From NCBI GenBank assembly GCA_913058255.1, contig CAJXQU010000006.1, positions 1 to 64,000 of the forward strand: 64,000 bases of DNA. The letters are read 5' to 3'. The translations under genes and the position numbers were made by a program. This document shows, piece by piece, positions 56,901-64,000 of the stretch. This stretch comes from an uncultured Pseudomonadota bacterium (lineage in GTDB: Bacteria; Pseudomonadota; Gammaproteobacteria; CAJXQU01). The notes under the pieces are model-generated. The model ran no database searches, was not told the DNA's origin, and worked only from the letters and a program-made list of their open reading frames with translations. Numbering within the stretch: the stretch's first letter is position 1; each line of letters starts with the position of its first letter.

Positions 56901-58151
56901 ATGAAAGATTTCGCTATCACTAGAAGTTTGATGTGGCGTGCATCAATACTGTTCATCAATTTTTTTCTCATCATATTGGCCTATTATCATATAAAGCCTG
57001 CTAGTCGCTCATTATTTCTTGAGTATCTCGGAGCTGATTCCTTACCCTATGTCTGGATCAGTACTGCGGTTATCCTCGGTTTAGTCATTAGTTTTTATCA
57101 CAGGTTGATCGCATCCTGCAGTCGTCTCAACATCGTGCTGGGTTCACTTGCTGTATTTATTGTTTTATTACTCATATTTCATCACTTTATGGGTTTGCAA
57201 GGAAAGTATACTGCTGTTGCTTTTTATATTTTTGTGGATATTTTTAGCGTTGTTCTGGTGGAGCAGTTTTGGAGTTTAACCAACTCAATTTACAAAATTT
57301 CAGATGGTAAGCGTTGGTATGGAATTGTCGGTACAGGAGGGTTGTTAGGTGGCTTTGTAGGCGGAATGATGGCCAAAATTTGGATCGAAAAAGCCGGGTT
57401 TGATACTTCTGATCTGCTCTTGTTCGCTGTTGCAATTTTAGCCGTTTTAATTTTATTGAATTTAGTTTTTGCTCGAATCGGTGTTTATGATGAAGTCATT
57501 GAACAACAAGAAAATACAAATTTTTCTGATGGCTGGGATTCTCTCATAAAGAACCGATACCTCGTACTGATTGCTGGTACCTTGCTACTCTCTCAGATCG
57601 CATCACCATTGGTCGAGTACAAGTTTATGAGTCTAGTGCAGGAGAATTTTACTGAATTGGACCAACGCACCAGTTTTCTTTCTGGATTTTTTGCGAATCT
57701 AGGTCTAATTTCAATAGGCATCAATTTATTAATCACACCTTTTGTACATAGAAACCTAGGCATTATTGCCGGCTTGTCATTACAGCCATTTTTCTTGTTG
57801 ATTAGCACCTGCGGTTTTTATATGAGCCCGAGTATTTTAATGGCGCAAGTTATGAAGATCAGCGACAGAGGGTTAGCTTATTCGATTAACCGGGCTTCTA
57901 GAGAACTGCTTTATGTCCCTATCGATTCAATACAGATTTATCAAGCAAAAGCATGGATCGATATGTTTGGTTATCGTTTGTTTAAAGTCGCCGGTTCAAC
58001 TTTGATCTTGCTTCTGACCCAGTGGTTGCCATTTACCGTGCCTACAGTAGGATTGAGCTGGTTGACGATGGTTGTTTGTGTTTTGTGGTTAGTCGCAATT
58101 AGCTTACTCGCACGCGAGCATAGATTGGTGGTTCAGACCTCGCCAGCATAA
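56901..58151 (+). CDS. ATP/ADP translocase-like multispanning membrane protein
   Basis: A 416-residue protein with about eleven to twelve hydrophobic helices. Features such as FWSLTNSIYKISDGKRWYGI followed by GTGGLLGGFVGG and the late NRASRELLYVPID resemble the Tlc/Npt nucleotide transporter family (COG3202) found in obligate intracellular bacteria and, as divergent members, in free-living ones. Whether it moves nucleotides is unknown. It stands alone between a leftward gene and the PilZ gene. Confidence 0.75.
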   Translation: MKDFAITRSLMWRASILFINFFLIILAYYHIKPASRSLFLEYLGADSLPYVWISTAVILGLVISFYHRLIASCSRLNIVLGSLAVFIVLLLIFHHFMGLQGKYTAVAFYIFVDIFSVVLVEQFWSLTNSIYKISDGKRWYGIVGTGGLLGGFVGGMMAKIWIEKAGFDTSDLLLFAVAILAVLILLNLVFARIGVYDEVIEQQENTNFSDGWDSLIKNRYLVLIAGTLLLSQIASPLVEYKFMSLVQENFTELDQRTSFLSGFFANLGLISIGINLLITPFVHRNLGIIAGLSLQPFFLLISTCGFYMSPSILMAQVMKISDRGLAYSINRASRELLYVPIDSIQIYQAKAWIDMFGYRLFKVAGSTLILLLTQWLPFTVPTVGLSWLTMVVCVLWLVAISLLAREHRLVVQTSPA

Positions 58152-58426: not shown

Positions 58427-61400
58427 ATGTCAGACAAATTATTACAGACAGAAAAAACTAAAACAGGTGCTGAACGGCGGCGTCACACACGCATTCCTCT
58501 TTCGATGAAAGCCATTTATCGTGGTGGTGAGTTGGAAGGGAAAACATGTGTTATACGCGATTTTTGCCTTGGCGGATTTTTCCTATCATGGTCAAGTGAA
58601 GATGTTGGAAAGCAGATCCTTGCACTTGAAGATAAGATCATTGGCGAGCCATTCTCTGTTGAGTTTACCGTTAAACATAAAAGCTCTGGAGATAAAACTT
58701 ATTCTATTAGCTTTAAAATAATGAGAGTGTTCCAAGGTGGAATGGGTGTATCGTTTGTTGAACCAGACCAAAGTACGCTAGATGTTTTAAATAAGATTGT
58801 TGAAGCATCACAAAAGAAAAGACAAACCATAAGTAATAAAAGGCGTAAAGGTTTAGGTAGCATCGAAGAGGGGACAAGTATTTTTAATAGTTCTCCATTA
58901 GGTCAACTAAGTATTGAGAATAACCTTGATGAAATTCTTCGATCTTATTTTAAGAAGTTAAATAACCGATTGATTGTGTTGTTCAAAGAAACAGCCGACG
59001 AAACAGAAAAATTTGATTATTTCAATTCTAGAGAAATCTTTAAAAACCAACTAGATTTACCTAAAGAGGAAATACTGAAAGCTGTTACAGCACAGTTAGA
59101 GGATAAAGCTGGACAGGTTTGGGAAAAAACATTTGATGAATCAGTCGATGGAAATTCACTAACACTTGTTGATGAAAAAGAATTTGAAGCATACCTAGTT
59201 ATTACCGGAATTATTTCGGATGCGGAAGCAAATAATCGTCTTTTATTACTGAGGGTGGGTAAAAAGATTTCAGAGTTGTTTAATACTGAATTTGATGATG
59301 TGCTCAACCCAATTGGTTTTTCAAGGCTTTTTCGAACGATAGATAGTTTTTTAGGGCACAGCAAGTATGGGTATGCATCGATTAAGGTTGCGTATGAAGA
59401 AATGAAGGAAGTATTAGTTCCTGAGTTAATTCTATTCTATGAAGAGCTTTCAGAAGGAGTGGAAATCAAACGAGATAAAGTTACCGATCAATTTAACCTA
59501 AGCTCTACGCCCTCACAAAATGAACTTCATACAGAACAAGTAGCGGAACAACCCGCGACAGGAAGTCAATACAATGGTACGGGTCAGAATCCTAATTATA
59601 CTGAAGATGGTTTTCAACAAAATACAGATTTCTTATCAGGGGCAGCTAATGGTTTTCCTTCTCTGGAGGGAACAAGAGCTTCGTCACACACACAGGTTAC
59701 TCAAAGTGCAGGAGGAATTGCACAATCACTAATGGCTTTGAGGCAAAGTATTGGTGCGCCAGAGACGATCAGTGAGATGTTGCAACAACAAGTGATTCCT
59801 AGTGATGAGGGATATGCTGTAACTGGATCGATGAGTGATAATGCGGGCTCTGCCAAAGCTGAAATTCAACGACAAAATTTATTAAAGTATCTCGACAATA
59901 TTCAGAACGAAGATAACCTTAAGTGGAAAAATGGCGAAACGATCGCTAATGTAACGAGCAGATTGCAACCCATGCTTTTAGGAGCTCAGAACCAGGTTGG
60001 AGAGGAAACACAACATGCGCTTAACCTAGCAGGTGGAGTGCTTGATTTTCTAAAAGATGATGAGATTCTTAGCACACCTGCGAGACAAGATTTACAACGT
60101 TTACAAACGGTTCTTTATAAGCAAGCCGTGTCCGAAGGTGGTTTATTTCAAGAGCGCAGGAACCCTTTACGTAATATTGTCAACCTATTAGAACAGGTTG
60201 ATCGAAGAGGAGGTAATAGTGAGCCTGAGACTCGACAAGCTCTAGATAGCTTAATAGAAAAACTTCTCTCCTTAGAAAGCTATGATGCAGATAGTTTAGA
60301 GAATATAACTGAACATTTAGATTCTTTATTAGAGAAGCAATCTGATGTTTATCAAAGTCGGGTTGATAGTATTGTAGAGCAATGTAATTTAGAACAGACC
60401 TTACTTTTTGATCTGAGAAAGAATGAGAAAGATTTATTAGTCAATAATCGTGCTAGTCAGGTAGCTCCAACGGGTGAGTATAAAATCTGGCAAGACCGAG
60501 CGAAAGGAATGAATAGAGGAGACTCTATTGTTGTCGATGAAGCGACTGGTGAGAAAAAACATTTATCACTCGCTTGGTCTGCTCCTGATAAAAGTCAATT
60601 TGTTTTTGTTGATGATAAAGGTAGTCAAGATACCAAAATGACGGAGCGAGAATTGATCGTCCGGTTATTGAAGGGCTCAGCAGAGTTGACAGATTCAGAC
60701 CAGAAGCCACTTTTTGATAGAGCAATAATTTCTAGTTTATTTAATGCGTATGATGATGTAAAAAATCAAATTGTAAATGATCCCGATACGGGGTTACTGA
60801 ATGACGAAAAATATAGGACAGAATTAAGTTTAGTATTGAATAATGCTATTCAAGACCATGTGGAGCATGCTTTCTTTTACCTTAGTTTTTCTAGCAGTGA
60901 TGAACCAGAAGCTGAAAAAGTTATCGAATATCTGAAACATACATCGGACTGCGTAAAAGATATGTTTGGTGAGCAAAGCCCGATCGGAAGAATAGGTGAA
61001 AATGTTCTAGGAATTACGACTGAGTTTATGTCTCAAGAAGGAGCCTTGATACTCGCTGAAACACTACTGAAATCGTTAGAAGATAATACATGTGAATTTG
61101 CCAACGAAATCATTAGTTTTCCGTTATCTATAGGCATCAGTATAATAAATGATCGTTCAATTAGTATTGAACAAGTTATTAATCAAGCCTTGGAGGCGAG
61201 CCAAAAAGCCTCTGAACGTGGTGAAAACCAGAGCTTTCTGTACGAGGTAGATACGCATTCCGAAGATAAAGTCGCGGATATTGAATATGATCCTATTGAT
61301 TGGAATTTCTTGATTGCTGATTTTAGTGATGCCGAAGAGATTATACCTTTATATGGTCAGCATATATTTTTAAGCGGTAGCGAGTCAGAAGGAAATAGCG

Positions 61401-62065
61401 CTAAGCCTTTATTTCATATTTTTCCTGCGGTCGAAGATGATGAAGCTATCCTCAGAAAGCCCCGTCGCTTTATTAAAGCATCAACAAATAATGACCTAGT
61501 CACTAAATTTGAAAAACTATTCTTTAGTAACTGTCTTGATTGGATGGCTGCGAATAAAAAACAAATTTCTAAAAATAGCCGTTGTTTAATAAGCTTATCG
61601 GGTAAAACTATCAGTAGTAGAAATATTTTAGATTTTATTATTGGTAAATTGACAGAATCTGCAGTCCCTCCAGGAAGAATTTGTTTTGAAATACCAGGCT
61701 CTCCATTGGAGATAGAAGTCGATAATGTTCATCGCTTTGTTCGCACGTTGCGTGAATTTGGTTGTCGCTTTTCATTAGGACAATATGGTAGTGATAGCTT
61801 AAGTCAGGAAGCGATGAAGTTACCTGTAGATTACATTTGTATTGATGAAAACCTAACCAGTGGGATTGTCGAAAGTGCGCAAAGCTATGGGCTAATCAAA
61901 TCAATTAATGATATTGCTCATATGATGGAAAAACAAACAATTGTCCCACATATGCTCGGAGAGCAAACAATGGAGCTTTTAAGTGAGTTAAATATTGACT
62001 ATATATCAAGCCCTGAAACTGAAAAACCGGTACGACTTAACCCTGTCCATGAGGAAGGCATTTAG
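58427..62065 (+). CDS. Giant PilZ-DUF1631 protein with degenerate GGDEF and EAL domains
   Basis: The 1212-residue cytosolic protein opens with a PilZ domain: ERRRHTRIPL (the c-di-GMP-binding RxxxR) and RDFCLGGFFLS, where the usual NxSxxG is DFCLGG. A DUF1631-like region covers about 160-780 (RRNPLRNIVNLLEQVDRRGG; IWQDRAKGMNRGD). A GGDEF-like domain starts at DPDTGLLN (785), but its active site reads RIGENVLGI. The final EAL-like domain has FEIPGS, LGQYGS instead of DDFG, and VPHMLGEQ instead of the catalytic Glu region. Both enzymatic domains therefore look inactive, leaving a c-di-GMP sensor/scaffold. It shares one base with the downstream kinase gene. Confidence 0.88.
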   Translation: MSDKLLQTEKTKTGAERRRHTRIPLSMKAIYRGGELEGKTCVIRDFCLGGFFLSWSSEDVGKQILALEDKIIGEPFSVEFTVKHKSSGDKTYSISFKIMRVFQGGMGVSFVEPDQSTLDVLNKIVEASQKKRQTISNKRRKGLGSIEEGTSIFNSSPLGQLSIENNLDEILRSYFKKLNNRLIVLFKETADETEKFDYFNSREIFKNQLDLPKEEILKAVTAQLEDKAGQVWEKTFDESVDGNSLTLVDEKEFEAYLVITGIISDAEANNRLLLLRVGKKISELFNTEFDDVLNPIGFSRLFRTIDSFLGHSKYGYASIKVAYEEMKEVLVPELILFYEELSEGVEIKRDKVTDQFNLSSTPSQNELHTEQVAEQPATGSQYNGTGQNPNYTEDGFQQNTDFLSGAANGFPSLEGTRASSHTQVTQSAGGIAQSLMALRQSIGAPETISEMLQQQVIPSDEGYAVTGSMSDNAGSAKAEIQRQNLLKYLDNIQNEDNLKWKNGETIANVTSRLQPMLLGAQNQVGEETQHALNLAGGVLDFLKDDEILSTPARQDLQRLQTVLYKQAVSEGGLFQERRNPLRNIVNLLEQVDRRGGNSEPETRQALDSLIEKLLSLESYDADSLENITEHLDSLLEKQSDVYQSRVDSIVEQCNLEQTLLFDLRKNEKDLLVNNRASQVAPTGEYKIWQDRAKGMNRGDSIVVDEATGEKKHLSLAWSAPDKSQFVFVDDKGSQDTKMTERELIVRLLKGSAELTDSDQKPLFDRAIISSLFNAYDDVKNQIVNDPDTGLLNDEKYRTELSLVLNNAIQDHVEHAFFYLSFSSSDEPEAEKVIEYLKHTSDCVKDMFGEQSPIGRIGENVLGITTEFMSQEGALILAETLLKSLEDNTCEFANEIISFPLSIGISIINDRSISIEQVINQALEASQKASERGENQSFLYEVDTHSEDKVADIEYDPIDWNFLIADFSDAEEIIPLYGQHIFLSGSESEGNSAKPLFHIFPAVEDDEAILRKPRRFIKASTNNDLVTKFEKLFFSNCLDWMAANKKQISKNSRCLISLSGKTISSRNILDFIIGKLTESAVPPGRICFEIPGSPLEIEVDNVHRFVRTLREFGCRFSLGQYGSDSLSQEAMKLPVDYICIDENLTSGIVESAQSYGLIKSINDIAHMMEKQTIVPHMLGEQTMELLSELNIDYISSPETEKPVRLNPVHEEGI

Positions 62066-63363
62066 TGACTACACAACTACCTGAAAAAATCGGAAAATAT
62101 TCAATAACGGGTGTAGCAGGAAAAGGAGCTATGGGAATTGTCTATATAGGACATGACCCTTATGTTGATCGAAAAGTCGCCATTAAGGTTAGTTTGAGTG
62201 GGGGCATTGGTGAGATCCAGCTTGATGACTCGATAACCGAAGATGACCATAGTCAGTTTTTTAACGAAGCAAAAGCTGCTGGAATTTTGGATCATCCAAA
62301 TATTATTAAGGTTTATGAAGCTGGAGATGCAAACGGGCAAGATTATATTGCGATTGAGTTTGTTGAAGAAGCAGATACATTACGAACTTTTCGTAAAGAA
62401 GATAAATTATTACCTGTAAACCAGTTGCTACATTATATTCGACAATGTGCTGAAGCTTTAGATTATGCACATTCAAAAGGTATTACTCATCGTGATATTA
62501 AGCCAGCCAATTTACTTTTAACGACGGATGGTGATATAAAAATTGCCGATTTTGGTATCGCGGTTAGAAAGACGAGTGATAAAACGGCGACAACTAAGGG
62601 CTTCGGCTCACCACTATACATGTCACCAGAACAAGCGGGAGGGACTAAGATTTCAGCAAATACAGACATGTTTTCATTAGGCGTTGTTCTTTATGAGCTA
62701 CTGACAGGCACCCACCCATTTCAAGCGAATACGATGCCTGCATTGTTTAAAAATATAGTTTCTGAAACTCAAAAGCCATTGAGTTATTACAGAGGTGGAT
62801 TACCAGAAGCACTCGAGATTATAGTCGCTAAAGCATTACAAAAAGAATCAGAAGATCGTTATGAAAACTGTGCAGAATTCGCAAATGCACTTATTGAAGT
62901 TGAGCAAGAGTTAGAACATTTTGGAGAGGACTTAACCGATGTTCATAAGCTTGAACTTCTCTCAAAATTAAATTTTTTCAATGATTTTTCAGCAGAAGAA
63001 ATTGAAGAGGTTTTAGAACAAGGTGATTGGGAGGTTTTTACAACAGGATCAGAAATTTTGACTGAAGGCGCAGAGGATAAATCTTTTTATGTAATAACTT
63101 CCGGTAATGCATCCGTTAGTCGACTTAATAAAGAAATCGCATCTTTAGACGAAGGTGATTGTTTTGGTGAAATGGCGTGGCTATTAGGTGGAAAACGATC
63201 GGCGTCCGTTGTAGCTATCACGAAAACCATAGTCCTTAAACTGGATGAACCGCTTGCTGAGTGGGCTTCGCTTTCTTGTCAATTAAGAATAAATAAAACG
63301 GTACAAAAAGTCTTAATGGACCGTTTAAATGAAACGAGTCAACGTTATGCTCGTTCACTGTAA
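62065..63363 (+). CDS. Ser/Thr protein kinase with C-terminal cyclic-nucleotide-binding domain
   Basis: The 432-residue protein starts with GTG sharing one base with the stop of the upstream PilZ gene (TAGTG). The kinase domain is complete: GKGAMGIVYIG loop, Lys41, helix-C Glu68, HRDIKPAN (Asp144, Asn149), DFG (162-164) and SPE. Residues about 300-420 form a CNB domain with the phosphate cassette FGEMAWLLGGKRSASV, keeping Glu369 and Arg378 that contact cAMP or cGMP. No membrane helix is present. A cyclic-nucleotide-regulated Hanks-type kinase is inferred; its substrate may be the upstream protein. Confidence 0.9.
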   Translation: MTTQLPEKIGKYSITGVAGKGAMGIVYIGHDPYVDRKVAIKVSLSGGIGEIQLDDSITEDDHSQFFNEAKAAGILDHPNIIKVYEAGDANGQDYIAIEFVEEADTLRTFRKEDKLLPVNQLLHYIRQCAEALDYAHSKGITHRDIKPANLLLTTDGDIKIADFGIAVRKTSDKTATTKGFGSPLYMSPEQAGGTKISANTDMFSLGVVLYELLTGTHPFQANTMPALFKNIVSETQKPLSYYRGGLPEALEIIVAKALQKESEDRYENCAEFANALIEVEQELEHFGEDLTDVHKLELLSKLNFFNDFSAEEIEEVLEQGDWEVFTTGSEILTEGAEDKSFYVITSGNASVSRLNKEIASLDEGDCFGEMAWLLGGKRSASVVAITKTIVLKLDEPLAEWASLSCQLRINKTVQKVLMDRLNETSQRYARSL

Positions 63364-63366
63364 ATA

Positions 63367-63792
63367 TTAGAAGTTCCCTACTATACGACCATGCAGTGTT
63401 CTTGAGCTGAAGTCAGTATCTCCAAAATCACTATTTTTTGTACTCGCAGTGACCTGCACATCAAAGATATTATAATCATTGATACCTTCGGAAACATTCG
63501 TGACATTACAGCTGTTTAATTCTAGGCTGATCGTAAAATTCCCAATATCAAACTCTTCAGGCAAACTAGGACAGCTATCATTCGTTCGCACAAACCATGC
63601 TGCCCATTCCATTCCACTTTCTGCTGCGTATAGTGCCCGATTAGATTGCAGTGATAGTGAGGTGCTTGTGTGCTGCATGGCATTTAATGACAACATAAAA
63701 ACCCCTACCGCCGACAACACGACCATAATAAAAATTGATCCAATTAAGGACATGCCTGATTGTTCTTTGCGTAAGTTAGTTTGCATGATCAT
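63367..63792 (-). CDS. mshP: MSHA-type pilin-biogenesis protein, MshP-like
   Basis: A 141-residue minor-pilin-like protein. The basic leader is followed by a hydrophobic helix (MSLIGSIFIMVVLSAVGVFM), then LQSNRALYAAESGMEWAAWF, which is the typical N-terminal pattern of MshP/PilX. A C-terminal beta-rich domain with two cysteines follows. The start overlaps the stop of the upstream prepilin gene (ATGA). It converges on the kinase gene with only three bases between stop codons. Confidence 0.82.
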   Translation of the reverse strand: MIMQTNLRKEQSGMSLIGSIFIMVVLSAVGVFMLSLNAMQHTSTSLSLQSNRALYAAESGMEWAAWFVRTNDSCPSLPEEFDIGNFTISLELNSCNVTNVSEGINDYNIFDVQVTASTKNSDFGDTDFSSRTLHGRIVGNF

Positions 63793-64000
63793 GGTGTGTT
63801 TTTCACGTGTATTTGCTGGACTAAAGTGACACTTTCAACATGACCCGATGGCATAGTTTCACTTAGTTTTAATCGAATGGTGACTAGGCCGCTGCGAGTG
63901 GCAGAACCGGAATTGTATTCAAAACTACACTCATCAATTTTGTCTGCAACTAACGCGTTATTTGCCCCAAGGCTAGTTAACTCAGATGCTTGATCAACGT
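63789..64000 (-). CDS. mshO: MSHA-type prepilin, MshO-like, C-terminal part only
   Basis: An open frame enters from the right edge of the window and ends at a TGA (63789-63791) that overlaps the mshP start. The visible 70 residues include DKIDECSFEYNSG, TRSGLVTIRLKLSE and a terminal VTLVQQIHVKNTP. This is the C-terminal pattern of MshO-like prepilins, whose last strand ends in HVxNTP. The signal peptide and body lie outside the window. Confidence 0.7.
   Translation of the reverse strand, partial: VDQASELTSLGANNALVADKIDECSFEYNSGSATRSGLVTIRLKLSETMPSGHVESVTLVQQIHVKNTP

Follow-up and report, generated by a model that had tools for sequence, protein, structure and literature searches.

Do two genes that share a single base encode one signaling unit, in which c-di-GMP and a cyclic nucleotide act together on protein phosphorylation? 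The question arises from a locus in a 64,000-nucleotide stretch of DNA (contig CAJXQU010000006.1, here called the window) from an uncultured gammaproteobacterium. To our knowledge, there are few bacterial cases in which c-di-GMP or cAMP directly controls a Ser/Thr kinase, and the DUF1631 region found here is functionally unassigned, so that both subjects could be addressed in a single operon.

Gene layout and domain architecture

The features of the locus are collected in Table 1. The coordinates, the strand, and the one-base overlap of the two open reading frames given in a preliminary description of the sequence were all reproduced, and Pfam placed PilZ and DUF1631 in protein 1 and a kinase and a cyclic-nucleotide-binding (CNB) domain in protein 2, as proposed there, with the PilZ match slightly below threshold on its own. 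That description had overlooked the GGDEF and EAL domains that Pfam identifies in the final third of protein 1.

Table 1. Features of the gene pair, with positions in the window
Feature	Position	Strand	Basis
Gene 1, PilZ-DUF1631-degenerate GGDEF-degenerate EAL protein	58427..62065	+	ORF, Pfam; 1212 aa, ATG start
PilZ domain, residues 16-125	58472..58801	+	Pfam 21.6 bits; family profile matches BcsA PilZ
PilZ c-di-GMP motif R18xxxR22 ... D45xC47xxG50	58478..58576	+	17-member alignment
DUF1631 N-terminal part, residues 164-643	58916..60355	+	Pfam PF07793 6.5e-32
Degenerate GGDEF domain, residues 784-935	60776..61231	+	Pfam 4.2e-5; aligned to FimX, RbdA
IGENV at GGDEF motif position	60992..61006	+	Residue comparison
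Degenerate EAL domain, residues 1005-1193	61439..62005	+	Pfam 4.1e-24; 1/7 catalytic residues kept
TAGTG stop/start, one-base overlap, common base 62065	62063..62067	+	Sequence
Gene 2, PknB-type Ser/Thr kinase, C-terminal cyclic-nucleotide-binding domain	62065..63363	+	ORF, Pfam, AlphaFold2; 432 aa, GTG start
Protein kinase domain, residues 15-266	62107..62862	+	Pfam 1e-47; invariant columns; nearest fold M. tuberculosis PknB
CNB domain, about residues 302-394	62968..63246	+	Pfam 1e-13 (cNMP_binding)
CNB phosphate-binding cassette GDCFGEMAWLLGGKRSA with E369, R378	63154..63204	+	Glu/Arg in every pair kinase

Conservation of the pair

A scan with the kinase alignment recovered this kinase subfamily in 15 of 370 genomes sampled from the class, at scores of 634 to 724 bits, the next group reaching 554 bits at most. 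The neighborhood is obligate: in 14 of the 14 genomes with readable neighbors, the kinase gene comes immediately after a PilZ-DUF1631-GGDEF-EAL gene on the same strand, while in the fifteenth (G349) it starts 106 bases from the contig end, where the neighbor is unreadable. Had the two genes been neighbors only in this genome, the idea of a functional unit put forward in the preliminary description would have failed, but the same pair was found across five gammaproteobacterial families (f1, f29, f82, f120, and f121) among unrelated flanking genes, and chance adjacency is ruled out by the 14 conserved neighborhoods. In a phylum-wide scan of 397 genomes, the subfamily was limited to two genomes, both of the same class, and a scan of named organisms gave only other kinase subfamilies among the matches listed. 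The long, PilZ-containing form of the partner is present in about 36 of the 370 class genomes, compared with 14 pairs, so it also occurs without the kinase.

The pair kinases form a clade with an SH-aLRT support of 97, and the paired partners form one with a support of 92 without the long-branch rows and 76 with them, both trees being compatible with a single origin of the pair. Between the window and genome G001, the partner is 51% identical and the kinase 75%, so the partner evolves much faster. The spacing of the genes varies between an overlap of 1 base and a gap of about 120 bases, and strict translational coupling is therefore not conserved.

This variable spacing, together with the existence of other kinase-CNB subfamilies that lack a PilZ-DUF1631 partner, would fit two operon mates that serve the same pathway with no direct contact, the kinase answering to cAMP and protein 1 acting as a separate c-di-GMP effector, so that their linkage would reflect co-expression only. 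We regard this as a real but rather unlikely possibility, as the adjacency has persisted in five families in which the other neighbors have been shuffled, and no member of the kinase subfamily with readable neighbors was found to be partner-less. A unit whose two proteins work together is the reading that we follow below.

PilZ and DUF1631 regions of protein 1

Taken alone, the PilZ region of protein 1 scores 21.6 bits (E value, 2.9e-4) against a Pfam cutoff of 22.5 bits. At the level of the family, the assignment is firm, because a profile of 17 members aligns in register with the PilZ domain of the cellulose synthase BcsA (1.7e-4), Pfam PilZ matches 12 of the 17, and R18, R22, C47, and G50 do not vary in the alignment of its members. 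The putative RxxxR c-di-GMP site that had been reported from the single sequence is thus present, as R18xxxR22, and both Arg residues and G50 are 100% conserved in paired and unpaired rows alike. As a sequence motif, the receptor signature (RxxxR and (D/N)xSxxG) is complete except that Cys stands for Ser in D45xC47xxG50, a replacement shared by nearly the entire family.

The DUF1631 match covers profile positions 18 to 471 of 741, and a PDB sequence search with this region returned no relative. Two genomes of family f120 carry, beside the full pair, an additional truncated PilZ-DUF1631 copy of ~380 aa (L254:3926-5077 and L255:5160-6302).

Degenerate GGDEF-EAL tandem

The Pfam match to GGDEF lies at residues 834 to 935, and the best PDB sequence matches of the tandem are RbdA PA0861 (1.1e-31) and FimX (8.9e-15). 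Both active sites have been lost while both domains have been kept, as in FimX and LapD. In the cyclase domain, the motif reads IGENV and the metal and substrate residues (Asp and Asn) are gone, a sequence that does not correspond to an active diguanylate cyclase. In the EAL domain, a single one of the seven phosphodiesterase residues is left, the Glu of EAL being replaced by His, the Asn by Ser, the Asp pair by GQ, the Lys by Cys, and the last Glu by Pro. The Arg that follows EAL, which is central to the c-di-GMP pocket of LapD (PMC3032553), is Ala in the window protein; this is not decisive by itself, because many relatives with an intact EAL site carry Gly there. As the metal-holding residues of the EAL domain are also missing, PilZ appears to be the only credible c-di-GMP site in the window protein.

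The decay goes hand in hand with the presence of the kinase. An intact EAL site (7/7 residues) was found in 20 of 22 unpaired relatives and in 2 of 13 kinase-linked proteins (L077 and L078), and an intact GGDEF motif (5/5) in 11 of 22 and 0 of 13, respectively, counts that exclude L104, which gave no alignment, and that represent one phylogenetic contrast and not thirteen, since the paired proteins are a single clade. Unpaired proteins show almost no variation at the metal and substrate positions of GGDEF, and paired ones have lost these residues. Two copies are unpaired yet degenerate (the second copy of L100 and L251). The EAL Asn has been replaced by Arg, Val, Pro, or Ser in different paired subclades, which argues for several independent losses of the EAL site after pairing, while the loss of GGDEF may have been one event.

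Given the intact EAL sites, often with an intact GGDEF, of the kinase-less relatives and the two paired members that retain the EAL site, protein 1 might be thought of as a c-di-GMP turnover enzyme regulated through phosphorylation by the kinase. With six of the seven EAL residues gone and the metal and substrate residues of GGDEF gone as well, we consider this hardly probable at all for the window protein, and a noncatalytic protein 1 is retained here. Its decay is not that of a pseudogene either, a possibility ruled out by the intact open reading frames and by the low dN/dS of the eroded EAL domains of its relatives. These values (0.06, 0.12, and 0.14 between close relatives) indicate strong purifying selection and are below those of the other three domains, except in the pair L093/L095, where PilZ is almost level; they were taken from relatives only, because synonymous sites are saturated between the window and G001.

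In genome G030 (L097:101-3470), the contig start truncates the partner, whose EAL part is found in a second, overlapping frame, reflecting either a frameshift or a split gene.

The kinase and its cyclic-nucleotide-binding domain

Protein 2 has the motifs of a Hanks-type Ser/Thr kinase (the VAIK Lys, the alphaC Glu, HRD, DFG, and SPE for APE), and its AlphaFold2 model (mean pLDDT, 84.5) has a PknB fold, the nearest being that of Mycobacterium tuberculosis PknB. The catalytic set (K41, E68, H142-R143-D144, N149, and D162-F163-G164) is intact and, like Glu369 and Arg378 of the CNB pocket, invariant among ten orthologs, so the claim that both sites had been kept holds well beyond the window. Sequence and model agree on a CNB fold with the Glu and Arg of a cyclic-nucleotide receptor cassette, and the residue after the Arg (S, T, A, or P among orthologs, mostly Ser/Thr) would fit either cAMP or cGMP.

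Could the CNB domain be a protein-protein or dimerization module instead of a nucleotide sensor, leaving protein 1 alone in control of the kinase? The variability of the residue after the Arg would allow it, and a paralog in the window's own genome (39% identical) has lost the pocket Arg and still has a CNB domain. We judge this improbable, since the Glu and the Arg are present in all 15 pair kinases, the closest solved relatives in the PDB, Plasmodium PKG and PKA RI, are true cyclic-nucleotide receptors, and cyclase genes are present in the pair genomes. A class I adenylate cyclase and/or a class III cyclase family protein occurs in 16 of the 16 genomes checked from pair-bearing lineages, and the window genome has both. 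A nucleotide-gated kinase is thus the reading retained.

The paralog closes an operon with response-regulator, STAS-like, CheC-like, and PAS-histidine-kinase genes (L107:8830-15316), a layout repeated in a congener (L237). Downstream of an unpaired long DUF1631 gene come response-regulator, CheC-like, and PAS genes (L085:3316-9152), a setting that resembles that of the paralog in L107.

Comparison with known systems

Each part of the pair is of a known kind, be it the PilZ receptor, the FimX/LapD-like degenerate tandem, the PknB-like kinase, or the CNB domain; their combination and its evolutionary pattern were not met with in the searched literature, which omits most subscription journals. 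Within that same scope, the earlier statement that no system of this composition had been described stands. No paper there treats DUF1631 and PilZ together, three papers mentioning DUF1631 a single time each, and in a 2005 overview of the architectures of bacterial Ser/Thr kinases, kinase-TPR-GGDEF is listed, while PilZ and cyclic-nucleotide-binding domains are absent from its main text.

FimX (Pseudomonas aeruginosa and Xanthomonas) and LapD likewise carry a GGDEF-EAL tandem that has lost both active sites. They differ from protein 1 in having a REC-PAS or HAMP N terminus in place of PilZ-DUF1631, so protein 1 is not a FimX proper (REC-PAS-GGDEF-EAL); protein 1 also has the more eroded EAL (His replaces the Glu of EAL, and Ala the next residue, an Arg placed in the c-di-GMP site of LapD; PMC3032553) and an obligate kinase neighbor. 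In Pkn1 of Myxococcus xanthus, a Ser/Thr kinase is fused to PilZ in one protein (PMC8316039), which similarly joins a c-di-GMP receptor domain to a Hanks-type kinase; however, Pkn1 is described as kinase plus PilZ only, whereas the window pair is made up of two proteins that also contain a degenerate GGDEF-EAL tandem together with a second nucleotide site. Eukaryotic PKG and PKA also couple a kinase to CNB domains with the Glu/Arg cassette, but protein 2 is of the bacterial PknB type with a single, C-terminal CNB, and its gating is a prediction made here. The two-domain layout of protein 2 recurs, among the matches listed, in Pkinase-CNB proteins of Rhodocyclaceae and Gallionellaceae and in tandem gammaproteobacterial ones, all of them separate, lower-scoring subfamilies that, in the loci examined, were never neighbors of a DUF1631 gene. 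Stand-alone DUF1631 proteins (about 750 to 830 aa) have the DUF1631 region in common with protein 1, but theirs is a full-length match, with no PilZ stretch, and they are too short for a GGDEF-EAL tandem.

Two kinase-CNB paralogs flank CBS-like and other genes in an arrangement recurrent in several families (L229, L231, L232, and L233), and betaproteobacterial kinase-CNB genes directly adjoin an argininosuccinate lyase-like gene (argH) (L119, L120, and L122).

Proposed function

The coupled c-di-GMP/cyclic-nucleotide/kinase unit of the preliminary description is borne out as to its conserved adjacency, its conserved ligand-site residues, and the cyclases in every pair genome checked; its composition was incomplete, because protein 1 is a PilZ-DUF1631-GGDEF-EAL protein with dead catalytic sites. 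In our proposal, protein 1 would act in the cytoplasm as a receptor-scaffold, with PilZ as its reader of c-di-GMP, and its GGDEF and EAL domains would neither make nor break c-di-GMP, acting perhaps as structural or protein-binding modules by analogy with FimX and LapD. Protein 2 would be a kinase of the PknB type that cAMP or cGMP gates through its C-terminal CNB domain. The two proteins would be produced together and most likely bind each other, and therefore the output of the kinase, on protein 1 or on clients recruited by it, would depend on both messengers. We give about an even chance to this two-protein unit of a c-di-GMP-reading scaffold and a cAMP/cGMP-gated kinase with a joint phosphorylation output, in which we infer the binding of both ligands, the activity of the kinase, the contact between the proteins, and the direction in which control runs.

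More tentatively, and with less than even confidence, we can suppose that an ancestral PilZ-DUF1631-GGDEF-EAL c-di-GMP enzyme became a noncatalytic subunit that regulates a Ser/Thr kinase gated by cyclic nucleotides; in such an undescribed class of complex, protein phosphorylation would be set by c-di-GMP and cAMP/cGMP together. The pair also offers a natural record of the conversion of an enzyme into a scaffold: where the kinase is absent the relatives are intact, and where it is present they are eroded. Its recurrence in unrelated gammaproteobacteria suggests an undescribed link between second messengers and protein phosphorylation.

Flanking genes

The genes that converge on the pair are prepilin-like, four of them with an N-methylation motif, and Pfam gave no match for the nearest (63367-63792). 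In other systems, type IV pili are under the control of PilZ and FimX-like modules, and MSHA-type pili or surface attachment had been put forward as the output of the pair. Such convergent genes were found in the window and in G001, and the other pair genomes carry unrelated neighbors (such as a large helicase, GlnRS, diacylglycerol kinase, or glycerate kinase, names given by sequence inspection), so the pilin neighborhood is specific to the window's genus. Control of these pili through the convergent genes is therefore very improbable, and we dropped MSHA as the output.

Directly upstream of the pair is a TLC-type ATP/ADP transporter-like gene (56901-58151, + strand; Pfam TLC, 7.6e-17), of a family known best from intracellular bacteria; it is also upstream in both congeners (L105 and L017) and was not seen in the other pair genomes. 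The prepilin-like run adjoins PEP-CTERM, exosortase (Exosortase_EpsH), and TPR protein genes (window 63367-64000 and L108:3368-11552), pilin and exosortase loci thus standing side by side.
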